The notes beneath the pieces were generated by a model. It did no database searches and had not been told where the DNA came from. It saw only the letters and a program-made list of their open reading frames with translations. Both the position numbers and the translations under genes were made by a program. A stretch of DNA of 23,998 bases from a virus, in the IMG/VR virus record IMGVR_UViG_3300017598_001353, positions 1 to 23,998 of that record; one strand, written 5' to 3'. Shown here piece by piece: positions 1,607-20,939 of this stretch; within the stretch, counting starts at the first letter, position 1, and each line of letters begins with the position of its first letter.

Positions 1607-3055
1607 TTAATCTTCTTCAGGAATTCCACTACTATCGACTTCATTATTAATTTCCTCGGAAGATTCCCGGATTTCACCCTCGATAACCTCGTAGTCAGTA
1701 TCTGTAAGGTCCGGAAGCACCATCTTGGTCATATGCTTCTGGGCCTTCTCTTTAAAAGTTTTGCTTGTCACCTCACTCATAGCCTTGATTATATTATCCA
1801 GACTAAGACTAAGATCATCAATCGAAAAGTGTGGAGATCTGGTTATATCAACTTTTTCAAACTTGTCTTCGATATTTTGCCATTTCAACCACAATCGGAT
1901 TATATTCTGTTCCGATTCAAGAAGATTGGCATTTTTTTGAATCAACACACTATTAAGTTGTTGAAATTCGTATCGAAGGGCCAACCCGGACGAAACTTCA
2001 TTATTGCTTTTGCGTTGACCATGAACACCTGACAAGTGGGCTATCCGATAGGTCTCGTCAACCTTTCGATCAATCCAATCCAATACGGAATTAATGGGTT
2101 CTGCAATAGCAGCTTCCATCCAATCCGGTCTGGCCTGGGGATTATCAGGTGGAAATTCCTGAACTGCCCGAACACCAACAGTTTCTCCAGCCGGCTCATC
2201 GCCTTCCTTCTGCATTGGAAGACGAAGCATCGGAAATCCGGCAAATTTTATTACTTCCTCACCATGAGACAGATTCCGGATAATACTGGCTGTAATATAC
2301 GAAATTTCACGAATATCGGAGATGCCAATATATGGAACATATATGTTTTTAATATTAGGAAGCCATACAAATGGAATCTCACCTAGTGGATTACCACCTG
2401 CACCAACAAGAATAGCATCACCTTTATACTGATATGCCGATGCTGTATTTTCTTCCGATGTCTTTGATCTCCAAATTTCCCATTTGTCTCTTGTCCAAAT
2501 TGTATATGTATCCTCCAGACTTTCCTTTAGTTTCAAATAGCTCAAAACAGGACGATGGGTATTCGGATCTTTTTCCCATGCCCAATCATATATATTTGAC
2601 AAGGTATAAAGGCTGCAATACGGATAAACTCCTGCTTCAACCTCCTGGGCAACTGTCTGCAGACTTTCGGCCTTATTGACTAAAACACCGGCAGATCCAT
2701 ATACAGATGCAAGTTTCTGTGAATTATTCAAAAACATATCAAAATTTGTTCCGGACAGATCCGCATCTTCCTCGAACATTCTCCATTGAGGATTCTTTTC
2801 CACACCTCCCATATGCCTAATGGGAGATCTTTCTGTAAGATAAAAATTGAATAAATCCACAATCGCTGCGGAATAATTAAAACAAATACCCTCTTCTATA
2901 CGCGTCTTCCAATTGTCAAACGATTCAAGAGGATGTTTAACTAATGAAGCTTCAATAAACGGACGCCCGCCATCATATGCCAATCTGTAAAAATTCCACG
3001 ATTCTTCGTAGTCTGTATGAATTTTATTCTTTTCTTCCAGCTCTGTCTTCTTCAT
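1607..3055 (-). CDS. Phage portal protein
   Basis: A 482-residue protein with the character of a phage portal: the ring at one capsid vertex through which DNA enters and leaves. Supporting features are the acidic/aromatic N-terminus (about residues 1-60, with W-x-x-R-x-x-E-x-x-x-F-N), an alpha/beta wing (GAGGNPLGEIPFVWLPN near 210-235), the long stem helix region (ISDIREISYITASIIRNLSH) and a crown segment rich in Gln/Asn/Leu helices (LALRYEFQQLNSVLIQKNANLLE). Length and position fit: it lies directly downstream of terL and one small gene. The start ATG at 3053-3055 has GAGGAA about 7 bases upstream, inside the end of the preceding gene. The C-terminus is strongly acidic. It could be of the DUF4055/SPP1-like type, but I cannot settle the subfamily. 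Confidence 0.8.
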   Translation of the reverse strand: MKKTELEEKNKIHTDYEESWNFYRLAYDGGRPFIEASLVKHPLESFDNWKTRIEEGICFNYSAAIVDLFNFYLTERSPIRHMGGVEKNPQWRMFEEDADLSGTNFDMFLNNSQKLASVYGSAGVLVNKAESLQTVAQEVEAGVYPYCSLYTLSNIYDWAWEKDPNTHRPVLSYLKLKESLEDTYTIWTRDKWEIWRSKTSEENTASAYQYKGDAILVGAGGNPLGEIPFVWLPNIKNIYVPYIGISDIREISYITASIIRNLSHGEEVIKFAGFPMLRLPMQKEGDEPAGETVGVRAVQEFPPDNPQARPDWMEAAIAEPINSVLDWIDRKVDETYRIAHLSGVHGQRKSNNEVSSGLALRYEFQQLNSVLIQKNANLLESEQNIIRLWLKWQNIEDKFEKVDITRSPHFSIDDLSLSLDNIIKAMSEVTSKTFKEKAQKHMTKMVLPDLTDTDYEVIEGEIRESSEEINNEVDSSGIPEED

Positions 3056-3056
3056 T

Positions 3057-3263
3057 TTATTTCCTCTTTTTCAAACACAAGCTTTTATATTTACGACATA
3101 CGGCGGCCCGAACTTTTTTCTTTTCTTCGGATGTACCATGTTGAGATACCCTGGCAAGGGCGTTTCTGGCATGTGAGATATCATGAATAGGATATCTTCG
3201 CCCAGGTAATGCAAAATTTTTTCCCTTGATCTTTTTCCGACCTTTTGATGAAAGTTTGCTCAT
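3057..3263 (-). CDS. Small basic phage protein (DUF6582-like motif)
   Basis: A 68-residue, very basic protein. Residues about 19-55 carry the motif L-P-G-R-R-Y-P-I-H-D-x-x-H-A-R-N-A-L-A-R-V-S-Q-H-G, followed by a Lys/Arg-rich helix (EEKKKVRAAVCRKY). This motif recurs in phage proteins, often as a short domain attached to head-maturation or portal-region proteins; DUF6582 is the name I associate with it. Here it stands alone between terL and portal. Its ATG overlaps the terL stop as ATGA, and its own stop is one base from the portal start, so the three genes are tightly coupled. Function is unknown; nucleic-acid or head-protein binding would suit the charge but is only inference. Confidence 0.65.
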   Translation of the reverse strand: MSKLSSKGRKKIKGKNFALPGRRYPIHDISHARNALARVSQHGTSEEKKKVRAAVCRKYKSLCLKKRK

Positions 3264-5788
3264 TTCCAGTATAACCTCCTTGAACGTCGATACTGCGGAC
3301 GTGCAGACCAGCGAAGAAACTGTGATGTAGAATCGACAATATCATCAAATTTCCCATATGGAAACTGCGCCATCTGGGTTTCAAAATCAACTCTCCAGCT
3401 AGCTTTCTCCGGAATAAATACACGACCGGCCTCAAGCAGTGGTGACGTTTCGCTCATACGAATCTTCTTGTTCACGTCAGCCTTTATAGGAATGACACTG
3501 AGTTCCGTATGGTTTTGCTTCAGATCTTGAATAAGACTTTGTCCACTGGCCTTATCCTCTATTAAAATAGGAATAGGGCCAAATCCGTATCCAACCCATT
3601 TGTCATGCAATGCAACCACCCTCCTTTTTAATCTCGGATATGCCATTCGTTTATTAATTAAATCCAACAAATAATAATTGCCATTATCACCAATACCCCA
3701 AACTGTTCCAGCGGATGGATCATTCATTTGCGCTTCTTTAAAAGCTGTATCCCACGAACACACCACTTTTGTAAGCTTTGGCAAAACACCATCGAGTATT
3801 TGTCTTCTCCACTTGTTTTTTAACCTGTCCAGGCTAAACAACGCCTCACAATTTGGAAACATAAAATATTGCCATTCATGCAAAGGAAAATGCTGCAACC
3901 AATTTATATTTACAATTCCTTCACCTTCCGGGATAGGTCGTTGTTGATACAATGACGACCATTCTCTAGTTCCGATAGTTGTTCTCGTGCTTGCAAGTCT
4001 GTCTCCATCGTATCTTGAAGGCCAGAGAGCTTCTCCAGACATCCTGCCAATAACATCCCCATCTTCTTCGGCAATTGCCGGAAGTTCAAGTATTTTCCAA
4101 TCTTCATGTGCGGCCTCTTCTATCAAAAATCCGGCTAAGTCATAGTAACTCCACCGTGTCATAATCAGAATAATGGCATGTTCCTTCATTAAACGGGTAT
4201 AAGCTACAGCCCGAAACCAATTCCTGAGATCTTGCTGAGAAGCTTCGGAATCTGCATCTTTCCTGCCTTTAATCGGATCATCTATTATAAATAAATGGGC
4301 TCCACGACCGGTAACCGCACCGCCTACACCCGTGGAAAAATAAGCTCCGCCCTTTTCCGTATTGAATTTATTTGCACTTTTACTATCAGATGAGATTGTT
4401 GAACCAGGAAAAATTTCATTATAAACAGGATCTGTCAGTTGATTTCTGACTTTACGCCCAATGTCTGTGGAGCGATCAAACGAATAAGTTGCTGATATTA
4501 CCTCACGTGACGGGTTTCTTCCAAGATACCAGGCCGGGAAATACTCTGAGACAAGCATTGTGTTATGGGTTGGGATAAGTTGTTTGCCAACTAAATAAAG
4601 ACCGTCTTCACGATCAACCTTTATACAATGCCCCATTTCAGGCTTTTCTGCTAATCGGATATCTGTAATAGAAATTCTTCTGCGAATATCAAGCCCTGAT
4701 ATTTGTTTTCTCGGAATGCGCGTTGGCAAGCTTCTTGTTGGTTGAAAGCCTACCTGATAAACAATTTTTTTACCAACAATTCCACTTGAGCTGGTTGTAG
4801 GTTGTACCTCTATAATATATGGACGAAATCCTAAAGTCGTGGCTAAATCAAAAACACCATCACGTAATTCTTCAGAACAAGTTGAAAATCTAACTCGTCC
4901 TTTTTTATCCACATGACCATCTGTATCTATTAAACCCGCAAGTAATTCTTCTCTTTGTTCACGATTCGATCTGAGGTAAACTTCAGGGATATGCTTATTC
5001 TTCCAAAGATTTAATCTTTTTAATTGGCGAACATATCCATGGTTAAAAGTGGTATAATTGACATTTGTTTGCCATTGTACAGAGTAGCTGGTTTTTCTAT
5101 AACCACAGGCAGCTATTGCCTCTACGACTTCAGTATCGTCTTCATGATAAGAGATTCTCATCTTATCACTCTGTCCATCACCAAGCCAAGCACCTAAAGT
5201 ATAAGGATGTATCGGTAAAATTACCCGCTGGAATTGAATCGGTTTAACATCAGGAAGCTGCCATCGTGCCCTGCCACCACGTTTACCTTTTTCTCCATAC
5301 CAAACCCTTTTCATAAGGGCTCGGGTTTCCACCGTACGCCATTTTGCAGCAGATCTATCATATACAGTCCAAAGATGATCCTTATTTGTTTTGATCACCT
5401 CTCCATTTGAAAATTCAATTTCGACATCACAAATTCTTTTTTCACTGCAATAGGTAATGAGCGCTGGATTACCATCAGGACTAAATACATAATCCCCAGG
5501 AGATAAATTACCATGTTTTCTCCAGCCGGAAGGAGTTAAAACATCAATAATATCAGCTACTCGCTTCCCGTGACGAGGCGGCATAAAGATCATTAGTCGA
5601 TGAATTGTGCCATCTTCGACACCTTCGAGATGTGCAGCAATTAATTGATGGTGTGGAGCTATTTCATATTTTGGGTATTGAAGTTTGACATAGGAAAGCA
5701 ACTTCGAATGTGCATAGGCATGAAGTTTTGCAGTTTTGTCATTAAATCTATTGGTGGGCTTGGACGACTTCAACAAGGTTGCCATCAC
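3260..5788 (-). CDS. terL: Terminase large subunit with in-frame intein
   Basis: An 842-residue precursor (counted from GTG at 5788; ATG at 5785 is an equally good or better start behind GAGGGA). The exteins together make about 508 residues, normal for TerL, the packaging ATPase and headful/cos nuclease. The Walker A motif MPPRHGK ends at residue 75 and its natural continuation, TMLVSEYFPAW, resumes at residue 410; residues 76-409 are the intein. Walker B is LFIIDD (499-504), followed by the coupling motif LIMTRW (541-546). The RNase H-like nuclease acidic residues appear as SWD680, IED745 and FDD815-816 with D819. The start overlaps the end of terS by about 40 bases. Splicing is needed to rebuild the ATPase P-loop. 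If the intein did not splice, the protein should be inactive. Confidence 0.93.
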   Translation of the reverse strand: MMATLLKSSKPTNRFNDKTAKLHAYAHSKLLSYVKLQYPKYEIAPHHQLIAAHLEGVEDGTIHRLMIFMPPRHGKRVADIIDVLTPSGWRKHGNLSPGDYVFSPDGNPALITYCSEKRICDVEIEFSNGEVIKTNKDHLWTVYDRSAAKWRTVETRALMKRVWYGEKGKRGGRARWQLPDVKPIQFQRVILPIHPYTLGAWLGDGQSDKMRISYHEDDTEVVEAIAACGYRKTSYSVQWQTNVNYTTFNHGYVRQLKRLNLWKNKHIPEVYLRSNREQREELLAGLIDTDGHVDKKGRVRFSTCSEELRDGVFDLATTLGFRPYIIEVQPTTSSSGIVGKKIVYQVGFQPTRSLPTRIPRKQISGLDIRRRISITDIRLAEKPEMGHCIKVDREDGLYLVGKQLIPTHNTMLVSEYFPAWYLGRNPSREVISATYSFDRSTDIGRKVRNQLTDPVYNEIFPGSTISSDSKSANKFNTEKGGAYFSTGVGGAVTGRGAHLFIIDDPIKGRKDADSEASQQDLRNWFRAVAYTRLMKEHAIILIMTRWSYYDLAGFLIEEAAHEDWKILELPAIAEEDGDVIGRMSGEALWPSRYDGDRLASTRTTIGTREWSSLYQQRPIPEGEGIVNINWLQHFPLHEWQYFMFPNCEALFSLDRLKNKWRRQILDGVLPKLTKVVCSWDTAFKEAQMNDPSAGTVWGIGDNGNYYLLDLINKRMAYPRLKRRVVALHDKWVGYGFGPIPILIEDKASGQSLIQDLKQNHTELSVIPIKADVNKKIRMSETSPLLEAGRVFIPEKASWRVDFETQMAQFPYGKFDDIVDSTSQFLRWSARPQYRRSRRLYWK
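4562..5563 (-). mobile_element. Class 3-like intein with LAGLIDADG endonuclease in TerL
   Basis: Residues 76-409 of the TerL precursor. The splicing blocks are present: an N-terminal block (DVLTPSGW, then LSPGDYVFSPDG), block B (H138-L-W140), block F (C388-I-K-V-D...GLYLVG) and block G (P-T407-H408-N409 before Thr410). The first intein residue is Arg rather than Cys, Ser or Thr. Trp at block B position 12, Cys at block F position 4 and Thr just before the terminal His-Asn form the W-C-T triplet that defines class 3 inteins, in which the block F Cys replaces the N-terminal nucleophile. Between about residues 196 and 340 sits a homing endonuclease with LAGLIDADG motifs LGAWLGDG and LLAGLIDTDG. 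Insertion between Lys and Thr of the P-loop is a typical, functionally indispensable intein site. Confidence 0.9.
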
Positions 5789-6317
5789 TTTCCCTCATAG
5801 CATTGACCAATCCTTCGAATTCGTTGTTCTGTGACGCTCTAACTACTTCATCAATTTCTGATTTGGAAAGATTGGCTGTAATGCTTTTAAGATTAACATT
5901 CTTCGTATTCATTTGACCAGCACCGGTAAGTTTTGCTTCCAGCTCTACCATCTTCCGAAGTTCCTCGAAGAGCTTCCCTCCTGTCGCATTTTTTGGTAAG
6001 CTTAAAAGCTTTTCAAACGCCATTCTTTGCAACCTTCTGAGAGTTACCATGCAGCGTACAAGAACAATGCCTGAATCAATTAGAGCATCATTAAGCAATT
6101 GATACCTGACAACTTTCAGGTCTCTCATAATCGTGTCATAATGGACTCCAAATTCTTCAGCCATGTCTTTCACGAGCCAGCCTTTTTCCCATAACTTCTG
6201 GACTTCCGCACGACGCACGATTACCTTTCTTGACAGGCGCCGGTGGTGTTTCGTTGGCACTTGGCTTTTGTTATATTTTTTTCCATAACCAATTGGATTA
6301 GCAGGATTTATAGCCAT
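5748..6317 (-). CDS. terS: Terminase small subunit (DNA-binding)
   Basis: A 189-residue protein placed directly upstream of terL and overlapping it by about 40 bases, the usual position of the DNA-recognition subunit of the packaging motor. A helix-turn-helix is visible at about residues 39-67 (VQKLWEKGWLVKDMAEEF, then VHYDTIMRDL). It is followed by helices suited to the ring oligomerisation domain (TLRRLQRMAFEKLL and KLFEELRKMVELEAKL), and an acidic C-terminal tail that would contact TerL. The N-terminus is basic. The ATG at 6315-6317 has GGAGG about 10 bases upstream. It is the first gene of the leftward packaging operon, driven by the promoter at 6375-6403. The family is assigned from context and the HTH rather than from strong sequence signature. 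Confidence 0.75.
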   Translation of the reverse strand: MAINPANPIGYGKKYNKSQVPTKHHRRLSRKVIVRRAEVQKLWEKGWLVKDMAEEFGVHYDTIMRDLKVVRYQLLNDALIDSGIVLVRCMVTLRRLQRMAFEKLLSLPKNATGGKLFEELRKMVELEAKLTGAGQMNTKNVNLKSITANLSKSEIDEVVRASQNNEFEGLVNAMRESDGNLVEVVQAHQ

Positions 6318-10068: not shown

Positions 10069-10305
10069 GTGAAGCTCCAAACTGCACAAGAAATAGAACC
10101 AGAAAAATTCTTTTTCTCCAGGGTAAATATAGACGGAAGAACTGTTTATCTTGCTGTTGGGGCATACTATTTAACAGCGGTGGATACACAAGGGCTTGAG
10201 TCAGATCCCAGTATTGAATATTATTGCAATGAGCAATGGTGCATCGACAGATATCTATCAGGAGTGGTTGATCCTGAGAGTAGTATTTTAAGGATAACGC
10301 AATGA
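10069..10305 (+). CDS. Truncated chimeric Fn3-like protein
   Basis: A 78-residue frame starting at GTG 10069 behind AAAGGA. Residues 1-19 (MKLQTAQEIEPEKFFFSRV) resemble the first 20 residues of the giant protein downstream (P-E-E-F-F-F-S-R-L). Residues about 30-66 (AYYLTAVDTQGLESDPS, then YYCNEQWCIDRYLSG) closely match the second half of the upstream 113-residue Fn3 protein. The first half of the Fn3 domain is missing, so the fold is probably incomplete. It looks like a recombination product between its two neighbours. It could be a decaying remnant; its stop overlaps the giant gene as ATGA, which keeps translational coupling. Confidence 0.45.
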   Translation: MKLQTAQEIEPEKFFFSRVNIDGRTVYLAVGAYYLTAVDTQGLESDPSIEYYCNEQWCIDRYLSGVVDPESSILRITQ

Positions 10306-13300
10306 GACTTGAACAAATAGATCCGATAAACACACCTGAAGAGTTCTTCTTTTCCCGGCTTGTGCCCGAAGAAATTGTACCCGAAGAAATTGCACTTGAT
10401 GACGATGGTGTTGAATATATTATACCTGAACATATTATACCAGAGCATGTTGCATATGATCTCACCCATGAAGAAGAAACTGTAGCGACAGGCAAGAAGA
10501 TCAACAAACGTGTCAAAAACGGTGTGCAATCGGTTCATGTTCACGATGACATTTCCGTTGATGTCTATTTGGACGATGCGCTTGTAGCAACGTGGTTTGT
10601 TCAGGGTCAATACGATCAAAGTGGTTGGCAGAACTTTAATCGTGCATGGCAATATGTCGATGTTGTTGACGGACATATACAGGGGTCAGGTACTCAGGGG
10701 GCTTTCAGTTGGGACATAGACATCCCTTGCTTTTATGGAGAAGACAACAAGTGGACAGTCAATGTGGTAGCTCCCGGCTTTACTGTTCGCATGATCTGGG
10801 AAATTACACTCACTGAACTGGGGCAGCAGCTTTTTGCCAATGGCGACCTAAAAATAAACACCGATGGATATACTGGCAATGTCTCGGACGATGAGGGAGC
10901 GGTTGTTAGGACGATTATCTTTGAGCCTGATGGTTTGGTTGATGGACTTGAGATTGATCCATATATTTCGGTCGATGAACAAGCCACTTATATAGATGTT
11001 CACTGTGATGGGTTCGTTGCGAGAACTTATTCCAACGGCAGTGAAGCGTTTCTTGGGCGAATTTATGACCCGACCATAACTGATATATGGTTTACGTTTG
11101 GATCAAAAGTGGTGGTGGGGGGTACGACTTATTGCATCAGCGAGGACACTGGGATTACGCTTGAGATTGTAGAGAATACGTCAACCAGAGTCAGACTAAG
11201 AGCTGTTGGAGACTTTGAGGACTCAGGGCAGTCAAGCCTTGCAGATGAATCGGGTTCGAGCCTTGAGTTGTATATTTATCCTGATCGTATAGCCATGACA
11301 GCGAAGTTCAATGCAACTGCTTCAATCACCCTGTCCGATAATGCTGCAAACGGTTTGTGTTTTATGGACACGGACACGATTACCAGTGGTGATTCTAAGT
11401 ATGAAAGCACAGGAAGTGAAGCGGATGCTGGCGGTGACGGTGTTCAGTCAAGTGCTGATTATATAGCTACCTTGTCTGATGAGTGTAACGTGCAGGGAAT
11501 TATGACCGAATCAACCCTTGGCGGCGGCGATAGCACTTATATTCAGTATATTGACGATCCCGGTGTGGCGCTTAGGTTCGGCTGGAACAATGGAACCGTA
11601 ACGGCACTGACAACCCTAACGGTCATGTGGATTATCGACTCAACCGACCGTGAAAAGAATAGTATATTCTCAGATACTTTTTCTACAGGGTCAGACCTTA
11701 ATTCTAACTGGACAGATTTTGGAAGTCATGATTTCAGTGTATCTGGTGGAGTAGCGAAACCACTTTCAACTTGGGATACTTGCAAGGCATATCATAACGT
11801 AAGTGGAACGGTGGAGACGGATTATCTCATAGGCCATTGGAAGTGTGATGATAATGCTGCGAGTAGTACAGTTGTCGATGAAGTCGCAAGTAGTGATGGT
11901 AACTGGGAAGTAACTTCAACATCTGCAAGTAGAGATACAGACAATGATTCGATAACGGATCCTATAGGGGGCAGATCGTTAGATTCAAAAGGACTGTATT
12001 CCATTGATATGGTAGTTGGCAGTGGAACAATACACGACAATGATTTCTTGAAGAAAGGATCAATTACACTTCAAATTAAACCTCAGTTTGCTTATGACGT
12101 TGGGGCAGATGAGAGTATCTGGAGACTAAGATATGATGACAATAATTTAATTGATTGTTGGTATGAGTCAAATTCGGATGATATTAGATTTCGAGTAATT
12201 TGGGGGGGAGCTGCCCAGGTAGTATGTGACACCGATGCTTTTACCTCTAATAATGAGTTACAGCAATGGACTACGATTCATTGTTGCTGGGACTCTGATA
12301 AAGATTTTATGGCTCTTGTCGTTAATGGCGAGACAATTGAAACTGGAAGTCCAACAGGTACACCTACAGCAAGCCATCCAGGAGAATTTGAAATTGCTCG
12401 TAGAGGGTCTGGCGATGGTGATATAATCATCGATGAAATCAAAACATTTGATGCCTGCATCCCTTCAATAGGAAGTGCGGATAACTGGGCACAAGCTGAT
12501 TTAGAAGTTGATCTATCTCAAGATGATTCATCAGGGGTTTTGTTTAGATATGATTATAGTGCTGATACCGGATATGCAGCATTATTTAATGCCAGTGGAA
12601 GATTATATCTTAGGTCTTGGAATGGATCATCTTATACGTGGGTAGCAACTGGAACAGTGGTAAGTAGGATTGCTGGCATGTATACAGTTTTTGCCCTAAT
12701 AACAGGAACAACCATTAAAGTATATGTTGATGGAACAATAGACATAGATGCAACTTCTTCAACATATAGTTCTGGAAATTACGCTGGTATGGTTGCACTT
12801 GCTGATGGTTCAAACTACACGAGTGTTGATAATTTTTCATGTGGGACTGCTTTTAAATATACCTCAGTTGAACGCCTTGAAATCGGGGATGAGTTTAAAG
12901 ATTTTAGCCTTGGTGAAAAATCAAAATGGGTAGGTTTCCCGAATGACGAAGGAACGCCAGATTCCCCAATTGGATCATGGGCGGTGTATGGTACAAATTC
13001 TGATAGAGTTTATTGTCGTGAATGGACCGCAACGGAAGACGGAACCATAACTCATCTCAATGCAATGGGGACCACGGAAGATTACTGGCAGGAAGCGTGG
13101 TTAGTTGTTTACAATGGGTCAACTTTAATTGGAACTGTAGATTTGGCTTCATGGAGCCCTACTAATGATTGGAATGGAGAAAAATCTGTAACCGTTTATG
13201 GAGGTGAGAGTTTAGATTTTTCAACAAATGATGTAATACGTTTTGGTATAGCATGGGATAATGATCTATCTGGCAGTACAGCTTTGAATAGAGACAATGG

Positions 13301-16300
13301 CGCAGGTGCTGATGGTGGCATTCCTTATGACAATACATCGGCAGTAGAAGGAAACCCACCAACAACGGCTTCTTTTAACGTATCAACTACATATGGATTT
13401 GGAATAATTTTAAGATATACAGCAGGAGATGCTCCAGATACAGGAACGTGGGTTTCTGATCTAATTATTCCAAAAGGCATTGACGATGGAGCAACAGACG
13501 GAGCCTTGCATATAGACGCCCCCCACTTCTTCCAACCATGCAACGGTGATTCAAGTGTTTTGTTTTATTTGGATTTTGAAGGAGACACAGAAGCTGAAAG
13601 ATGCACTGATAAAATTGGTTCTATCGCAGCCAATGAAATAAATGGAGCAACGACAACGACACATATAGCTGGGTCAAGAGGATATGATTCAGGTGGTGTA
13701 GGAGATGTCAATTACTCAAATGCAACCAACATAATTGACCCACTAAAAGGATCAATTATGTTTTGGTTTAATTTTCAAACTTTTGGCAATAATGATTACC
13801 TATTTGGAGCTGGCCCTAATACCAACAATAAAATCCAATTGTATATTACTCTCAGTACCAATTATTATTTAGGAGGACACCGAATAGCAGGTGGAACTGG
13901 TACTTCGTGCTTCGACACTGTTTATCCGCTGACTTTGAGTACGTGGTATCACGCAAGGCTCTCATGGGATGAGGATTGGTCGGCATTGTGGTTAAATGGT
14001 ATTCTTATAGAAGAACACACAGATGCCGGAATTTGGGCAGGGACAATCTCAACTGTATATATTGGAAAGGAATATGATGATACAAGTGATGCAGATGCTA
14101 TATTTGACCAAATATACATAACCAACAATCCCAACACACCACGAAACTGCCACGATGCAAAGTTCACGAATGATCGAGCAAGGCACAATCTGGCGGTGGT
14201 CAAGCATGACCCGATGTTCCTGAGTGGAACGGTGGGGAGTGAAACGTTTCTGGTTGGGCGAGGCGGGATTCGGACCGATCATCTAATAGGCCACTGGAAA
14301 TGTGATGATAATGCTGCGTCAAGTACAGTACTCGCTGAAGTTGGACCGAACGCTAATTATGAAGTTATTTCATCTCAAGCGAGTAGAGATACTGACAATG
14401 ATTCCACAACGGATGCAGTAAGTGGTCGAGCCTTAGATACAAAAGATGCGTACTTTATTGATATGGTCTGCGGTTCTGGAACAGTCCACGACAATGATTT
14501 TTACCAGAATGGTTCTGTCATGATAACATTTAAACCCAACTTTGTCTATAATGTTGGTTATTATCGATATATTTTTGAGCTTAATGTGGGGGTTGGAGAT
14601 GAGCGAATTTATTTTCTTTATGATAACTATAATGATTATTTTAGGTTGACTGTGGATTATGGAACCGCAGTTGAAATTATGTCTCCTGTATATACTGAAA
14701 ACAATACATTACAACAATATCACACAGCATTGCTTTCATGGAGCACAGACAACGACTTTATGCTATTCGCTCTTGATGGTAAGGTTATCGGTACTAATAC
14801 CGGTCTTGATACTCCATCTTCAAGCCATCCTGCTGCTTTTACTTTTGGATGTAACGATACATACAATACTCTTTATGCTGGAGACATAATCATCGATGAA
14901 ATCAAAACATTTGATGCCTGCATCCTTCCAGAGGTTGATTATCTTGCAGGTCATTGGAAGTGTGATGATAATGAAGCTGCTTCAAGTGCGATACTTGCTG
15001 CGGTTGGGCCAAACGCTAACTGGGAAGATGTTGCAACTTCTTCAGATAGAAATACAGACAATGATTCAATAACAGATGCAACAAGAGGTCGGGCATTAGA
15101 TACCAAAGGATTATATTATGTAGATATGGTAGTTGGTAGTGGAACTATACACGACAATGATTTTTTAAAGAAAGGATCTGTTCTTTTCACGTTTAATCCA
15201 CAGTTTATTTACAATGTCGGAGCAAATCAACATATATATTATTTGCGGTATAATGACAGCGATGCCATTGAGTTCTGGTATAACCACAATTCTGATTATT
15301 TTAATTTCAGAATCAATTATGGAGGTTCTGCTTATGATATAGTTACAAGTGCATATACAGAAAGCAATTCTTTGCAGCAGTGGCATACCGTATTACTCTC
15401 ATGGGATTCAGATAATGATTTTGGACTATTTGTTTTTGATGGGCAAGTCATAGGAACAGCTACGCCAACAGCTACACCAACAACCAGTCATCCGATACAG
15501 CATAGAATCAGCAGAAGCGGTGGCAGTAGTGGTTCTGACATAATCATCGATGAAATCAAAACCTTCTCATCTTGCATCCTCCCATACGGCAGCATCTTCA
15601 CAGGCAACGGCGCAGTCGATACGGATGTTGCCGAGAAAAGTGTTTTGTTTTATTTGGATTTTGAAGGGGCAGATGATGCCACAAGAAGAACGGATAAAAT
15701 AAATTCAGTTGTTGGTACTTATGGTTCAAGCGGTGGGATTATTCAGGTAGGAGCAGTATTGGCAGGAACTTATGGATATAACAATCAGGATATCAGCGCA
15801 AATTATTATTTAGAATATGCAGTAACTAATCAGGACATTGTAAATCTAAACATCGGCGCAATTAGCCTTTGGGTTTATTTAGATTATATAGCTACAAATG
15901 ATCGTATATTTGAAATAGGAACGAGTGGAGATGCTGATAACAGTATAGGCATACAAATGAACACTTCTGTGGGTCTGATTGCAACATACAGGGCTAATGG
16001 TGTAAATGAAAGTGTTCAAGTGGGGTCAAACCAAACGGCTGATCTCTGGTATCATTTACTAATGACATACGATTCACTTGGGACATATGATAATAAAATT
16101 CATTTTTATGTAAATGGTGAGGAAGTAGGAACGGCGCAAACGATAGCTAATGAGTGGAACGGTACGTTATCCCCTACTCTATATTTTGGATGTGATAGAT
16201 CTGAAGGCAATAATGCGGGCATTTATATAGACCAAGTCTACATAACCAACGATCCCAACACACCGCAAAACTGGACGGCATTCGGTGTTCCGTTGCATGT

Positions 16301-16322
16301 GCCATTATTGGAAATAACTTAA
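10302..16322 (+). CDS. Giant mosaic LamG/concanavalin-like adhesin or tail-fibre protein
   Basis: A 2006-residue protein with no signal peptide. It begins with tandem short motifs (VPEEIVPEEIA; IIPEHIIPEHVA), then a unique beta-rich region to about residue 450. A concanavalin-like domain starts at about 458 (DTFSTGSDLNSNW) and appears to continue only at about 726 (ADNWAQADLEVDL). The gap is filled by a LamG cassette at 507-720 whose relatives lie at 1326-1543 and 1546-1760. A jelly-roll-like segment occupies about 885-1045. A second cassette type (VLFYLDFEG ... YITNNPNTP) occurs at about 1084-1283 and 1780-1993. LamG-like sandwiches commonly bind glycans, so a receptor-binding or surface-decoration role is likely. 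There are no catalytic motifs that I can recognise. It overlaps the preceding gene (ATGA). Confidence 0.82.
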   Translation: MRLEQIDPINTPEEFFFSRLVPEEIVPEEIALDDDGVEYIIPEHIIPEHVAYDLTHEEETVATGKKINKRVKNGVQSVHVHDDISVDVYLDDALVATWFVQGQYDQSGWQNFNRAWQYVDVVDGHIQGSGTQGAFSWDIDIPCFYGEDNKWTVNVVAPGFTVRMIWEITLTELGQQLFANGDLKINTDGYTGNVSDDEGAVVRTIIFEPDGLVDGLEIDPYISVDEQATYIDVHCDGFVARTYSNGSEAFLGRIYDPTITDIWFTFGSKVVVGGTTYCISEDTGITLEIVENTSTRVRLRAVGDFEDSGQSSLADESGSSLELYIYPDRIAMTAKFNATASITLSDNAANGLCFMDTDTITSGDSKYESTGSEADAGGDGVQSSADYIATLSDECNVQGIMTESTLGGGDSTYIQYIDDPGVALRFGWNNGTVTALTTLTVMWIIDSTDREKNSIFSDTFSTGSDLNSNWTDFGSHDFSVSGGVAKPLSTWDTCKAYHNVSGTVETDYLIGHWKCDDNAASSTVVDEVASSDGNWEVTSTSASRDTDNDSITDPIGGRSLDSKGLYSIDMVVGSGTIHDNDFLKKGSITLQIKPQFAYDVGADESIWRLRYDDNNLIDCWYESNSDDIRFRVIWGGAAQVVCDTDAFTSNNELQQWTTIHCCWDSDKDFMALVVNGETIETGSPTGTPTASHPGEFEIARRGSGDGDIIIDEIKTFDACIPSIGSADNWAQADLEVDLSQDDSSGVLFRYDYSADTGYAALFNASGRLYLRSWNGSSYTWVATGTVVSRIAGMYTVFALITGTTIKVYVDGTIDIDATSSTYSSGNYAGMVALADGSNYTSVDNFSCGTAFKYTSVERLEIGDEFKDFSLGEKSKWVGFPNDEGTPDSPIGSWAVYGTNSDRVYCREWTATEDGTITHLNAMGTTEDYWQEAWLVVYNGSTLIGTVDLASWSPTNDWNGEKSVTVYGGESLDFSTNDVIRFGIAWDNDLSGSTALNRDNGAGADGGIPYDNTSAVEGNPPTTASFNVSTTYGFGIILRYTAGDAPDTGTWVSDLIIPKGIDDGATDGALHIDAPHFFQPCNGDSSVLFYLDFEGDTEAERCTDKIGSIAANEINGATTTTHIAGSRGYDSGGVGDVNYSNATNIIDPLKGSIMFWFNFQTFGNNDYLFGAGPNTNNKIQLYITLSTNYYLGGHRIAGGTGTSCFDTVYPLTLSTWYHARLSWDEDWSALWLNGILIEEHTDAGIWAGTISTVYIGKEYDDTSDADAIFDQIYITNNPNTPRNCHDAKFTNDRARHNLAVVKHDPMFLSGTVGSETFLVGRGGIRTDHLIGHWKCDDNAASSTVLAEVGPNANYEVISSQASRDTDNDSTTDAVSGRALDTKDAYFIDMVCGSGTVHDNDFYQNGSVMITFKPNFVYNVGYYRYIFELNVGVGDERIYFLYDNYNDYFRLTVDYGTAVEIMSPVYTENNTLQQYHTALLSWSTDNDFMLFALDGKVIGTNTGLDTPSSSHPAAFTFGCNDTYNTLYAGDIIIDEIKTFDACILPEVDYLAGHWKCDDNEAASSAILAAVGPNANWEDVATSSDRNTDNDSITDATRGRALDTKGLYYVDMVVGSGTIHDNDFLKKGSVLFTFNPQFIYNVGANQHIYYLRYNDSDAIEFWYNHNSDYFNFRINYGGSAYDIVTSAYTESNSLQQWHTVLLSWDSDNDFGLFVFDGQVIGTATPTATPTTSHPIQHRISRSGGSSGSDIIIDEIKTFSSCILPYGSIFTGNGAVDTDVAEKSVLFYLDFEGADDATRRTDKINSVVGTYGSSGGIIQVGAVLAGTYGYNNQDISANYYLEYAVTNQDIVNLNIGAISLWVYLDYIATNDRIFEIGTSGDADNSIGIQMNTSVGLIATYRANGVNESVQVGSNQTADLWYHLLMTYDSLGTYDNKIHFYVNGEEVGTAQTIANEWNGTLSPTLYFGCDRSEGNNAGIYIDQVYITNDPNTPQNWTAFGVPLHVPLLEIT
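11820..12462 (+). repeat. LamG cassette copy A (nested)
   Basis: Encodes about 214 residues opening with D-Y-L-I-G-H-W-K-C-D-D-N-A-A-S-S and closing with I-I-I-D-E-I-K-T-F-D-A-C-I. Its last 40 or so bases are identical to the end of copy B. The 13 bases AGTGGAACGGTGG just to its left (11802-11814) also occur upstream of copy B (14223-14235). It interrupts another domain. Confidence 0.85.
13551..14155 (+). repeat. Cassette type 2, copy D
   Basis: Encodes S-V-L-F-Y-L-D-F-E-G at its start and Y-I-T-N-N-P-N-T-P at its end, with a LamG-like body (IMFWFNFQ, then WYHARLSWDED and LWLNGILIEE). The opening about 30 bases are nearly identical to copy E at 15638. Confidence 0.82.
14277..14932 (+). repeat. 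LamG cassette copy B
   Basis: Second copy of the D-x-L-I-G-H-W-K-C-D-D-N cassette, about 219 residues. It is followed directly by copy C, so B and C form a tandem. The 3' end is identical at DNA level to copy A over about 40 bases, while the middle has diverged. Confidence 0.85.
14937..15585 (+). repeat. LamG cassette copy C
   Basis: Third copy, tandem with B. It shares V-V-G-S-G-T-I-H-D-N-D-F-L-K-K-G-S with copy A and diverges at its end (K-T-F-S-S-C-I in place of K-T-F-D-A-C-I). Confidence 0.85.
15638..16280 (+). repeat. Cassette type 2, copy E
   Basis: Second copy of the S-V-L-F-Y-L-D-F-E-G cassette, ending Y-I-T-N-D-P-N-T-P-Q-N-W, close to the C-terminus of the giant protein. The body has diverged from copy D but both ends are highly alike. 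Confidence 0.82.
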
Positions 16323-16337
16323 ACGCACGGGGGAAAC

Positions 16338-17807
16338 ATGAATCTATCAGTAGTAATACCGGCAAGGAATGAACCTTATTTACAAAAAACAATTGACGAC
16401 CTGTTGGCTAAATCCAAGAAAAGCATTGAGATCATTGCAGTACTTGACGGGTATTGGCCTGATCCGCCAATCAAGGATGATCCGAGGGTAATTCTTATTC
16501 ATCATCCAGTTGCGGAAGGCATGCGGCCCAGCATCAATGAAGCAGCAAGAATTGCTAAAGGCAAATATTTGATGAAGTGCGATGCCCACTGCTGTTTTGG
16601 AGAAGGATTTGACAAAATCTTATCACAGGATTGTAGACCGGGTTATACCTTAGTACCAAGACGGTATAACCTGGACACAAAAAAATGGGACAAAGGTAAT
16701 AAAATTTTTGATTTTCAATATATCTCAAGTCCGGATGATAAACGCTATCCCTTAAAAGGTCACAATTGGCCCGAGTATGGTGAACGTGTAAAAGGGAAAA
16801 AGATTTGCCCGCTCATGACATCTCAAGGATCTTGCTGGTTTACACATAGGAAACGCTTTTTTGAACTTGGTGGATTGGATGATGAAAATTATGGAGTCAT
16901 GGGCAGAGAAGCTCAAGAAACTTGCTTAAAGGCATGGTTGTCCGGTGGCAAATATATGTTAGATCGAAACACATGGTATGCACATTGGAAAAAGAATGCC
17001 GGTGTTAAGCATCCCCATCGAGCAACTTATCCAAAACCAAGAGACGAATGGAACAAAAGTGCAAAATTTCTGACAAATCAATTTGCTCATGAAAATCCAA
17101 AATGGCCACTGCAGAAAAGAAATCTTGCATGGCTGGTAGAAAAATTCAAGCCGGTCCCAACCTGGCACAACACAGAAAGCCTCAAGGCTACACGATATTT
17201 CAGGGAAAAGTTTAAGTTAAACGATGTAAGAAAAGCACCTATCAAATTAAAAGGCCAGCTGCGAAAAGATCTTTATAATATGTTCAATGAATTGAAGTAC
17301 AAGATCGGCTGTGAGGTTGGTGTGATGGAAGGAATAAATGCGGAATTCATGTTCCAAGCTATCCCAGGCTTAAAATTATATTTGGTTGATCCATGGATTG
17401 ATTATGAAGGACAAAGGAAGCATCGGGGCAAAGAGCTTTTAGATAATGGTAAGGCCAGCACAATAAAAAGAGTTGAGACATATGATGCAGAGATAATGGA
17501 AATGTTTAGCGATGAAGCTGCAAGATTAGTTCCAAATAATTCATTGGATTTTGTTTACATTGATGGAAATCATACATTTAACTATACAATAATGGACATA
17601 ATATTATGGACTCCGAAAGTCAAGGTCGGAGGTATTGTTTCAGGACATGATTATTATCATCATCCAAAAGCAAACATGGAAGTACGTCCGGCAGTAGAAG
17701 CTTATATTGCTCAGCACAAAATATTTCCACATTATCTTACCGATTCTCAAAGAAAACCTCATCATAAAGGAGACCGGCATTCATCCTGGTTTTGGGTGAA
17801 AGAATGA
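16338..17807 (+). CDS. GT2 glycosyltransferase fused to a class I methyltransferase
   Basis: A 489-residue two-domain enzyme. Residues 1-281 are a GT-A fold family 2 glycosyltransferase: S-V-V-I-P-A-R-N-E at the nucleotide-sugar site, A-V-L-D-G-Y-W, and the metal-binding acidic motif in K-C-D82-A-H-C, then G-G-L-D-D-E-N-Y-G-x-M-G-R-E-A-Q-E near the acceptor side. Residues about 282-489 are a Methyltransf_24-like SAM methyltransferase with G-C-E-V-G-V near 324 (motif I), L-Y-L-V-D-P-W, Y-I-D409-G-N-H and G-G-I-V-S-G-H-D-Y. It may add a sugar and methylate it, or methylate a related glycan. GGGGGAAAC precedes the ATG. The two halves have separate homologues later in this cluster (206-residue methyltransferase and 304-residue GT2). 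Confidence 0.87.
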   Translation: MNLSVVIPARNEPYLQKTIDDLLAKSKKSIEIIAVLDGYWPDPPIKDDPRVILIHHPVAEGMRPSINEAARIAKGKYLMKCDAHCCFGEGFDKILSQDCRPGYTLVPRRYNLDTKKWDKGNKIFDFQYISSPDDKRYPLKGHNWPEYGERVKGKKICPLMTSQGSCWFTHRKRFFELGGLDDENYGVMGREAQETCLKAWLSGGKYMLDRNTWYAHWKKNAGVKHPHRATYPKPRDEWNKSAKFLTNQFAHENPKWPLQKRNLAWLVEKFKPVPTWHNTESLKATRYFREKFKLNDVRKAPIKLKGQLRKDLYNMFNELKYKIGCEVGVMEGINAEFMFQAIPGLKLYLVDPWIDYEGQRKHRGKELLDNGKASTIKRVETYDAEIMEMFSDEAARLVPNNSLDFVYIDGNHTFNYTIMDIILWTPKVKVGGIVSGHDYYHHPKANMEVRPAVEAYIAQHKIFPHYLTDSQRKPHHKGDRHSSWFWVKE

Positions 17808-18775
17808 AACATGGCATACCATTGCTAACAAAGAAAATAAAAGACCTATCGGTTATTGTCTCAACTAAAAACAAAAGATTCTCAACTGCCAATAATATTC
17901 TTGAAAATAAACAAGCAGGTACTGAGTTAATAATAACAGTAGATGGTCCACCCATGGTGCATATACCAGATCATCCGGACATTAGGGTAATATATTATTC
18001 CGAACCTATCGGAGAAAAAGCGGTTATAGAAGAAGCAACAAAACTTTCTCAGGCAAAGCAGGTAATGACAATAGATGAATACTCTCCCATGAATAAAGGA
18101 ATCGTCTATTACACGGATAACCAGGCTGAAGAAAGAATCTATGCTGTTGCCCGTAAGATATTACTTAGCATGAATATTCCAATTATATCTGTGTCCCAAT
18201 ATCCGATTGATTTTGGCAAAAACTTCGTAATGGAATTAAATCGATCACATATATCCATGTTTAAACAAGTTCTAAAGGGCGTAGAAGAAAGTGCAGCGGA
18301 CATAATATATTTGTGTGAACATGATTTATTTTATCATAAAAGCCATTTTGATTTTATACCTGCAAAAGAAAACGTGTTTTACTTTAACCAAAATCGTTGG
18401 GCAGTTGATATCTTAACGGGCGCGGCAATATATTACAAAACATATTGTCCTTCGTTATTAATAGCACATAGAGAATTATTATTAAGCTATTATAGTCAAC
18501 GGGTAGCAATTCTAGAAAAAGAAGGTTTTACGGCTAGAATCGGCAATTCACCACCGCGAGGAGTAAAAGGTGACTGGAGCACACAAAAAATTATGAGCAA
18601 GCAGCCGGTCATCGATATACGCCATAGCAATAATTTAACTCCCAATCGATTTAACAAAAAAGATTTTACTAAAGAAGGTGCCAGAAAAGGTTGGAAAACT
18701 TCTGAATCTGTTCCGGGTTGGGGTAAAACATATGGCAGAATGTCAGAATTCATAAGGGAGCTATATAATGATTGA
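17804..18775 (+). CDS. Degenerate GT2 half fused to phage-type glycosyltransferase
   Basis: A 323-residue protein from ATG 17804, which overlaps the previous stop as ATGA (a TTG at 17792 is also in frame). Residues about 11-95 align with the start of the GT2 enzymes of this cluster (K-D-L-S-V-I-V; H-P-D-I-R-V-I-Y; E-P-I-G-E-K-A), but the P-A-R-N-E segment has become S-T-K-N-K and the D-A-H motif has become I-D91-E. The GT2 sequence stops there. Residues about 98-323 are a second phage glycosyltransferase type, with I-V-Y-Y-T-D-N, I-I-S-V-S-Q-Y-P-I-D-F-G-K-N and an acidic E172-H-D174 motif followed by L-F-Y. The N-terminal half is therefore probably non-catalytic. The C-terminal half may be active. 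Confidence 0.75.
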   Translation: MKHGIPLLTKKIKDLSVIVSTKNKRFSTANNILENKQAGTELIITVDGPPMVHIPDHPDIRVIYYSEPIGEKAVIEEATKLSQAKQVMTIDEYSPMNKGIVYYTDNQAEERIYAVARKILLSMNIPIISVSQYPIDFGKNFVMELNRSHISMFKQVLKGVEESAADIIYLCEHDLFYHKSHFDFIPAKENVFYFNQNRWAVDILTGAAIYYKTYCPSLLIAHRELLLSYYSQRVAILEKEGFTARIGNSPPRGVKGDWSTQKIMSKQPVIDIRHSNNLTPNRFNKKDFTKEGARKGWKTSESVPGWGKTYGRMSEFIRELYND

Positions 18776-19403
18776 TCGCTTAACAGTCATTTATTATACT
18801 TGTAACCAAGAAGAGGAAGCATTCGAAAAAATAATACAAAAGTCCTTACTCAATGTTATAGGTGACACACCTTTGATATCTGTCTCACATAAACCGATCA
18901 ACTTCGGCAAAAATATCTGTGTCGGAAATATTGGCGCTTCAGATATGAATATCTTTAGACAACTCCTCATGGGTTGCGAAGCTGCAACAACTCCACTGGT
19001 AGCAACAGCGGAAGCTGACTGTTTATATCCACCAAGCGGCTATTTTGATTTTAAACCTGTTAAAGAGGATATGGCATACCGATACACAAATCTATGGTTT
19101 ATATATCGAAAAAAAGCTTTCTATTATAAAAAAGATTATAGTTTATGTGCACAGCTTTCCGGTCGTGAGTATTTAATCAAGTATTTAAAAAGACGAATAT
19201 TGAACGGTTTTTCTGATCGCAGAAAAGATATTTTGCCATGGAAAGATTGTTGGAAAAACATTGACAGTGATATCCCATGCGTAAGTATTAAGTCCGGCAA
19301 TAGTATGAGGTCGGTCTCAGGACGAAACAAAGGCATTGAACCAACGCAAACATTACCTCATTGGGGAAATATAGAGGACCTCAAAAAAAGATTATGGACA
19401 TAA
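18768..19403 (+). CDS. Phage-type glycosyltransferase
   Basis: A 211-residue protein that starts at ATG 18768, inside the last eight bases of the preceding gene. It is a free-standing version of the C-terminal domain of its neighbour: V-I-Y-Y-T-C-N-Q near the start, L-I-S-V-S-H-K-P-I-N-F-G-K-N-I-C-V-G, M-N-I-F-R-Q-L-L-M-G-C-E, and the acidic motif E82-A-D84-C-L-Y-P-P. These are familiar from phage genes annotated as glycosyltransferases, where the E-x-D would hold the metal and sugar nucleotide. The C-terminus ends with a W-G-N-I-E-D-L-K-K motif similar to the W-G-K-T-Y-G-R-M end of the neighbour. Donor and acceptor are unknown. Confidence 0.78.
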   Translation: MIDRLTVIYYTCNQEEEAFEKIIQKSLLNVIGDTPLISVSHKPINFGKNICVGNIGASDMNIFRQLLMGCEAATTPLVATAEADCLYPPSGYFDFKPVKEDMAYRYTNLWFIYRKKAFYYKKDYSLCAQLSGREYLIKYLKRRILNGFSDRRKDILPWKDCWKNIDSDIPCVSIKSGNSMRSVSGRNKGIEPTQTLPHWGNIEDLKKRLWT

Positions 19404-20014
19404 GAAAATACCTTGAAAAACATTATACTGTAACTGAAAAGAATGGATTTGTAACTGTATTAAATTTTTTCAGAAGAGAATTGTATGTCTTATTCAGAGA
19501 CTTAGGGTTCAAAACAGGCTGTGAAGTAGGTGTGTTAAAAGGGAAGAATGCTCAAGGTATGTTTAAGTATATCCCAGGTTTAAAACTCTATATAGTTGAT
19601 CCTTACATAGATTATGATGGCGGACAAAGAACTTATGGTAAAAAAAACAAGAATCATCTTGAAGAAATGATGCAAAGAATGTCCGGCAAAAACTATGAAT
19701 TTTTCAAAATGAAAAGTCATCATGCTTGCAAATATGTTCCTAACGATTCCCTGGACTTTATTTATATCGATGGAAACCATAAATATGATTATGTCATGAT
19801 GGATCTAATCAATTGGATTCCAAAAATAAAAAAAGGCGGCATACTTTCCGGACATGATTTTTTCAATCGGGTAGAAGGTTTGCGTGGTGGGTTTGGTGCA
19901 AAGGCTGCAATTATAGATTATATCACATTTCATAAATTCAAACCATTGTATATAACACATAAAACCAAGGGGAGAAGACGTGTTCATCCATCATGGTTTT
20001 TCATAAAAGAATAA
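19394..20014 (+). CDS. Class I SAM methyltransferase (Methyltransf_24-like)
   Basis: A 206-residue protein from ATG 19394, which overlaps the end of the previous gene by 10 bases; an earlier in-frame TTG at 19361 has no good ribosome-binding site. It is a free homologue of the C-terminal half of the 489-residue fusion: G-C-E-V-G-V-L-K-G near 42 (SAM-binding motif I), L-Y-I-V-D-P-Y, Y-I-D-G-N-H at 124-129, and K-K-G-G-I-L-S-G-H-D-F. These fit the Methyltransf_24/cephalosporin-hydroxylase-like group often found in sugar-modification loci. The short N-terminal helix R-K-Y-L-E-K-H-Y matches the linker region of the fused version. A sugar substrate is likely but unproven. Confidence 0.82.
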   Translation: MDIRKYLEKHYTVTEKNGFVTVLNFFRRELYVLFRDLGFKTGCEVGVLKGKNAQGMFKYIPGLKLYIVDPYIDYDGGQRTYGKKNKNHLEEMMQRMSGKNYEFFKMKSHHACKYVPNDSLDFIYIDGNHKYDYVMMDLINWIPKIKKGGILSGHDFFNRVEGLRGGFGAKAAIIDYITFHKFKPLYITHKTKGRRRVHPSWFFIKE

Positions 20015-20024
20015 ACGGGGCAAA

Positions 20025-20939
20025 ATGAGAGACTTATCAGTATTGATACCGGCAAGAAATGAAGAATTTCTTAACAACACAATTGACGATATCATCAAAA
20101 ACAAACGAGCCAATACCGAAGTTATTGCAATCCTGGATGGATACTGGCCCGATCCTGGAATTCACGATCATCCAGACGTCAAACTTATTCATCATACGGA
20201 ATCAATTGGACAACGAGCGGCAACCAATGAAGCAGCCAAAATATCACAGGCAAATTTTATAATGAAAGCCGATGCACACTGCGCCTTTGATAAAGGCTTC
20301 GATGTGAAACTCATGGAAGATTGTGAACATGACTGGACCATAGTTCCAAGAATGTATAATCTGCACGTATTCGATTGGAAATGCACCGAGTGTGGAAAAA
20401 GGACTTATATGGGCCCTTATCCTGAAGAATGCAAAAAGTGCGGTAAAAAAAATGGTAAGTTTATAAAGAAACTGGTTTGGAAGCCACGCTGGAGTCGAGT
20501 TGCCGATTCTATGAGGTTTGATAAAACCATGCATTTTCAATATTGGCGCGCATTCAGTAAACGCAAGGAAATAGAAGAGCAAGACATAGCACCATTGCTT
20601 TGCGGACTTGGTGCATGTTGGATGATGCATCGAAAAAGATATTGGGACATTGGCGGATTAGATGAAGATCATGGTTCGTGGGGTCAAATGGGTGTGGAAA
20701 TAGCTTGCAAGTCATGGCTTTCCGGTGGACAGCATCTGATAAATAAAAAAACTTGGTTTTCACACATGTTTCGTACACAGAAAGATTTCAGCTTTCCGTA
20801 TAAAATTAGCGGTAAGCAAGTAAGCAAAGCACGAAAGCACAGTCGAAATCTATGGAAAAATGGCAAGTGGTCTAAAGCTGTGCATGATCTTGATTGGTTG
20901 CTTGAAAAGTTCAAACCTGTTCCAGATTGGCATGATTAA
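20025..20939 (+). CDS. GT2 glycosyltransferase with zinc-ribbon insertion
   Basis: A 304-residue family 2 glycosyltransferase with S-V-L-I-P-A-R-N-E, A-I-L-D-G-Y-W, K-A-D83-A-H-C and G-G-L-D-E-D-H-G-S-W-G-Q-M-G-V-E, all matching the GT2 half of the 489-residue fusion. Unlike that enzyme it carries a CxxC-x12-CxxC insertion (C120, C123, C136, C139) between the D-A-H motif and the acceptor region, reading W-K-C-T-E-C-G-K ... E-E-C-K-K-C-G-K, a typical zinc ribbon. It ends E-K-F-K-P-V-P-D-W-H-D, exactly where the fusion enzyme continues into its methyltransferase. GGGGC precedes the ATG. The zinc site might shape acceptor binding. Confidence 0.87.
   Translation: MRDLSVLIPARNEEFLNNTIDDIIKNKRANTEVIAILDGYWPDPGIHDHPDVKLIHHTESIGQRAATNEAAKISQANFIMKADAHCAFDKGFDVKLMEDCEHDWTIVPRMYNLHVFDWKCTECGKRTYMGPYPEECKKCGKKNGKFIKKLVWKPRWSRVADSMRFDKTMHFQYWRAFSKRKEIEEQDIAPLLCGLGACWMMHRKRYWDIGGLDEDHGSWGQMGVEIACKSWLSGGQHLINKKTWFSHMFRTQKDFSFPYKISGKQVSKARKHSRNLWKNGKWSKAVHDLDWLLEKFKPVPDWHD

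Follow-up and report, generated by a model that had tools for sequence, protein, structure and literature searches.

A class 3 intein with arginine at residue 1 in the P-loop of a phage large terminase

The terminase gene and the anatomy of its insert

The window analysed in this work is the whole stretch of 23,998 nt that makes up positions 1 to 23,998 of the IMG/VR virus record IMGVR_UViG_3300017598_001353. Its minus strand encodes a large terminase subunit precursor, which is recognised via Terminase_6C and phrog_38 and not via the Pfam model PF03354, for which no match was obtained in the window's own record. The start codon of this precursor is GTG, and an ATG at 5785 is also possible. 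Ahead of the terminase ORF, where a small subunit is usually encoded, lies a small ORF with an HTH (6317..5748), and a portal gene (3055..1607, phrog_145) comes after the terminase. Elsewhere in the window, a 2006-aa ORF on the plus strand (10302-16322) has no PHROGs match and contains repeated stretches such as LIGHWKCDDNAASSTV, which probably are repeats of the concanavalin/LamG type in a tail or surface protein. Downstream of this giant ORF, a series of glycosyltransferase- and methyltransferase-like ORFs is present on the same strand (16338-20939).

The terminase reading frame carries an insert whose features are listed in Table 1. The first-pass annotation had placed, within the Walker A motif of TerL, a class 3 intein that bears a homing endonuclease, exactly between Lys75 and Thr410 of the P-loop. 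The coordinates it gave are exact and agree with an empty site in a related genome, and the identification is borne out by motifs, profile, tree, structure and empty site. With the splice junctions marked by a slash, the translation reads ...RLMIFMPPRHGK75 / R76VADIIDVLTPSGW... at the N-terminal junction, N135KDH138LW140 in block B, and GHC388IKVDREDGLYLVGKQLIPT407H408N409 / T410MLVSEYFPAWYLGR at the C-terminal junction. The W140-C388-T407 triplet that had been pointed out earlier is confirmed in this translation, both in its residues and in their spacing, and it aligns with the family; the terminal His-Asn and the two LAGLIDADG motifs, likewise reported before, are also present. Both of the latter motifs are intact according to the translation and the Pfam matches, with each acidic residue kept.

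Table 1. Features of the terminase precursor and its intein (window coordinates)
Feature	Position	Strand	Basis
Terminase large subunit precursor, 842 aa	3260..5788	-	Terminase_6C 2e-12, TIGR01630 1e-22
N-extein, aa 1-75, Walker A stretch MPPRHGK at end	5564..5788	-	joined to C-extein in intein-free L016
Class 3 intein, 334 aa, precursor residues 76-409	4562..5563	-	motifs, alignment, tree, empty site
Intein residue 1, Arg76, codon CGA	5561..5563	-	empty site
Block B:7, Asn135, variable position	5384..5386	-	translation, family survey
Block B:10, His138	5375..5377	-	invariant in family alignment
Block B:12, Trp140 (W of WCT; intein W65)	5369..5371	-	invariant in family alignment
LAGLIDADG motif 1 (block C), LGAWLGDG, aa 198-205	5174..5197	-	translation, alignment
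LAGLIDADG motif 2 (block E), LLAGLIDTDG, aa 282-291	4916..4945	-	LAGLIDADG_3 2e-8, Hom_end 2e-7
Block F:4, Cys388 (C of WCT; intein C313), predicted initiating nucleophile	4625..4627	-	translation, alignment
Block G:5, Thr407 (T of WCT; intein T332)	4568..4570	-	translation, alignment
Terminal His408-Asn409	4562..4567	-	translation, family survey
+1 Thr410, predicted second nucleophile and P-loop Thr	4559..4561	-	translation, empty site
C-extein, remaining ATPase domain and nuclease	3260..4561	-	phrog_38 7e-91

Boundaries of the insert and its assignment to class 3

The presence/absence polymorphism at this site is provided by an intein-free relative (L016), whose terminase is 85% identical to that of the window over the C-extein. 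Over the empty site it reads MPPRHGK/TMLVSEFFPAWYLGR, with the junction GK/TMLVSE, and its terminase is uninterrupted (MPPRHGKTMLVSEFFPAWYLGR); no copy of the intein was found in a search of its 78-kb contig. The boundaries of the intein cannot be shifted, since its first residue is R and not T and its last is N and not K; alternative splice boundaries are ruled out by the empty site. Residue 1 is therefore Arg, encoded by CGA, and alignment with the intein-free TerL puts this residue, and not Cys or Ser, at intein position 1, which upholds the earlier statement that the usual nucleophile is absent there.

An assembly error is ruled out by a second contig from another metagenome (L001/L015), which is 99.70% identical to the window over 5633 nt, with 17 mismatches, 0 of them inside the intein; since the intein that it carries is identical, Arg1 does not result from misassembly. 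Just past the intein, in the C-extein (window 4466-4508, minus strand), a stretch of 43 nt contains five of the 17 positions at which the window and L015 differ, against none in the 1002-nt intein. This cluster may mark the border of a tract of recombination or co-conversion. When co-conversion around the insertion was looked for, flank identity to L016 did not rise near the site.

When scored with a profile from which the window and its nearest relative had been left out, the window intein gave 8e-111, the best E among 1000 shuffles being 0.03, and the match is not due to chance. Class 3 inteins are defined by the WCT motif, with Cys F:4 as the obligate initiator (PMC3196547; PMC5222942). The window intein has this motif (W140, C388, T407) together with H138, H408-N409 and T410, and the standard Cys, Ser or Thr is absent at its residue 1. 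WCT, His B:10, HN and Thr+1 are conserved across the 212 distinct relatives, from 245 loci, in our family survey, which is not an unbiased sample and includes one class 1 sequence (L212). Membership in class 1 is ruled out by Arg1 and membership in class 2 (KlbA) by the presence of WCT.

The class 3 references used were the solved mycobacterial DnaB inteins and Mycobacterium/Nocardia P-loop loci. The best PDB matches to the splicing part by phmmer were the class 3 mycobacterial DnaB inteins 6bs8 (1e-10) and 6rix (6e-9), and the family profile matched both DnaB structures at about 3e-29, the value for gp41-1, a class 1 intein, being 8e-11. In a tree of 46 related WCT/WST inteins with a small class 1 outgroup (n=4), the former were split from the four class 1 inteins with support of 100/99, and the neighbours of the window intein were L002, L017, L020 and L018. 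An AlphaFold model of the intein (51 sequences, pLDDT 92.6) matched the intein-endonuclease PI-SceI over its whole length in Foldseek and gave target-normalised TM values of 0.75-0.79 with most chains of class 3 splicing domains; as modelled, the intein has the Hint splicing fold. Based upon these results, the inserted segment is almost certainly a class 3 intein of the mobile kind, located between Lys and Thr of the P-loop in a phage large terminase.

Variation at residue 1, block B:7 and block F:4

Among the 212 distinct relatives, residue 1 is Ala in 106, Leu in 31, Gln in 24, Gly in 9, Arg, Glu, Asp or Pro in 8 each, and another residue in 10. The suggestion that Arg1 is a fresh variant is thus not sustained, as its eight occurrences include L047, L092, L061, L083, L084, L196 and the cultured Rhodobacter phage RcKickapoo (L180). 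At least five changes are required on the tree for Arg1, and at least 22 for residue 1 overall among the 46 sampled sequences. In the nearest relative, L002, whose intein is 80% identical, Gln1 is encoded by CAA, a single transition away from the CGA of the window. Given the recurrence of Arg1 and its single-base distance from Gln1, Arg1 amounts to a single step at a labile position, and its standing as a new feature is ruled out by the survey and the one-base difference. While residue 1 shifts this often, the active-site His, Trp and Thr are almost constant, and this contrast is what a non-nucleophilic residue 1 would lead one to expect. In the accessible literature, no study was found in which Arg1 had been tested in a class 3 intein. 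Three of the Arg1 inteins (L061, L083 and L084) are class 3 inteins at a neighbouring site, PPRH/TKSEF, in another terminase type, and L061 has Gly, not Thr, at G:5.

The first-pass annotation had also marked Asn135 in block B as deserving a check. This residue does sit at B:7 with the correct N-K-D-H spacing; its treatment as an anomaly is ruled out, as B:7 varies both in the survey (Asp 96, His 76, Ser 14, Gly 12, Cys 8, Asn 4, others 2 of the 212 relatives) and in the literature, where class 3 inteins are stated to lack a conserved residue at this position (PMC7891396). On the aligned sequences, Asn135 reads as a minor variant at B:7.

A different kind of variation is seen at F:4, where Ser replaces Cys (W-S-T) in six distinct TerL P-loop inteins from IMG/VR contigs, which form two groups (L018 and L253; L021, L026, L184 and L185); the L026 intein is identical in L182 and L183. 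A scan of DNA with the pattern S-I-x-V-(D/E)-x-x-D-G-x-Y-x-V-G detected 8 contigs, viz. the seven already known and L253, and the Cys version of the pattern detected 103. Residue 1 is Ala in L018 and L253, Ser in L021, Gln in L026 and Leu in L184 and L185, a nucleophile thus being absent there in five of the six. W, T, H, HN and Thr+1 are kept in L018, L021, L026, L184 and L185, and Thr+1 is found in all six (Fisher p 0.001 versus the Cys set, ignoring relatedness). The Ser codons at F:4 are TCC, TCT and TCA. Within each of the two groups, Ser persists although the proteins are about 60% identical, a pattern that favours a functional residue over a recent mutation. Two Cys/Ser changes at F:4 are seen on the tree, with a single origin not rejected (AU p 0.42). 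The L021 terminase (contig 3300031566_012467) carries, in the same ORF as its P-loop W-S-T intein, a second, class 1-looking intein at the C-motif (CLTGDTPIL...VVHN/TRWHFDD).

All active class 3 inteins have been argued to have Cys F:4 (PMC3196547), and an engineered Cys-to-Ser change abolished activity of the AceL NrdHF intein (PMC7891396). No report of natural class 3 inteins with Ser F:4 was found in the literature searched, outside of which lies Tori and Perler (2011). Judged from their sequences, we favour regarding the W-S-T TerL inteins as a candidate serine-initiated class 3 variant; a compensating nucleophile elsewhere in these inteins is possible. If they splice, class 3 chemistry can begin from serine and the WCT definition needs widening. 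These natural variants make the class 3 nucleophile requirement testable with natural sequences, and the window intein, which is 56% identical to L018, would be the natural Cys counterpart for such a comparison.

Proposed splicing and relation to known inteins

Since the rest of the terminase is intact and its Walker A motif is broken by the insert, terminase function should require splicing, and the sequence makes it very likely that the window intein splices. By analogy with studied class 3 inteins, the terminase would be produced as an inactive precursor with Walker A split by 334 residues. Cys388 would attack the Lys75-Arg76 bond, aided by His138, Thr407 and Trp140, to give a branched thioester, from which the acyl group would move to Thr410. 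Asn409 would then cyclise with the help of His408, and an O-N shift would restore the GKT Walker motif. As residue 1 has no nucleophilic part in this scheme, Arg would be tolerated. The LAGLIDADG domain is predicted to cut intein-free terminase genes of related phages, into which the intein would be copied. In comparison with L002, the codons of the window intein show 110 silent and 66 replacement differences, with the frame intact.

Decayed class 3 inteins are known (PMC3196547), and position 1 can matter, as A1G abolished splicing of AceL NrdHF (PMC7891396); hence Arg1 could be viewed as a sign of decay in a non-splicing intein like Arth_1007 of Arthrobacter FB24. However, Cys F:4, His B:10 and a real extein are all missing from the Arthrobacter intein, whereas in the window every catalytic residue is kept, as are the two LAGLIDADG motifs and the complete terminase; the window intein is identical on two contigs, and intact relatives also show Arg1. 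Decay is therefore improbable, and we continue to regard the insert as a class 3 intein that very probably splices.

Still less probable is a class 2-like intein, in which Thr+1 would attack the N-terminal junction directly and Cys388 would be incidental. Residue 1 is non-nucleophilic, as in class 2 (KlbA) inteins, but the full WCT triplet is present, the intein clusters with class 3 in the tree, and tested class 3 inteins were blocked by Cys F:4-to-Ala and not started by Ser+1 (PMC5222942). The single open frame would also accommodate a domain particular to this terminase, or a homing endonuclease fused to it, either of which would stay in the protein. Such a domain would separate the Walker A Lys from its Thr, the terminase of L016 continues seamlessly without it over the similar C-terminal part, and the insert has the terminal HN/T and the Hint fold; hence we consider this explanation extremely unlikely.

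The first-pass description of class 3 inteins as rare is outdated, as 1,701 were present in nr by 2020, of which 82.5% had LAGLIDADG motifs (PMC7891396), and 755 phage records match the window intein. Inteins of mycobacteriophages occur most commonly in TerL, and an insertion point between Lys and Thr of the P-loop has been called "classic" (PMC5050341). As class 3 and P-loop TerL inteins are already in the literature, the window intein is of a known type; it is genuine but ordinary, and its odd Arg1 is found in several relatives. Like it, the M. smegmatis DnaBi1 (6bs8) and M. chimaera DnaB1 (6rix) inteins have WCT, His B:10 and a Thr-His-Asn end, and they occupy a comparable site, the P-loop Lys/Ser of a nucleic-acid ATPase. 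These solved DnaB inteins are mini-inteins with Ser+1, whereas the window intein has an endonuclease, Arg1 and Thr+1 and resides in TerL. The TerL inteins of Gordonia phage ViaConlectus, Porphyromonas phage005b and Bacteroides phage B124-14 are 36-41% identical to it and share the TerL site between Lys and Ser or Thr, WCT, LAGLIDADG and a length of about 330 aa; they differ in having Leu, Gln or Glu at residue 1 and Ser+1. The RcKickapoo intein shares Arg1, WCT, Thr+1 and the terminase P-loop Lys/Thr site, although it is only about 31% identical and its terminase is more distant. L002 (IMG/VR contig 3300013099_000125) has the site, Thr+1 and Asn B:7 in common with the window and differs in Gln1 and in a second intein of class 1 type; this class 1-looking intein (CVCGGTL...VHN/CFLIDDP) lies in Walker B of the same terminase, the class 3 intein being in Walker A. 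To these known systems the window adds an example with well-defined limits, for which a matching empty site is available, and the Gln1/Arg1 sister pair allows the effect of residue 1 to be viewed in isolation.
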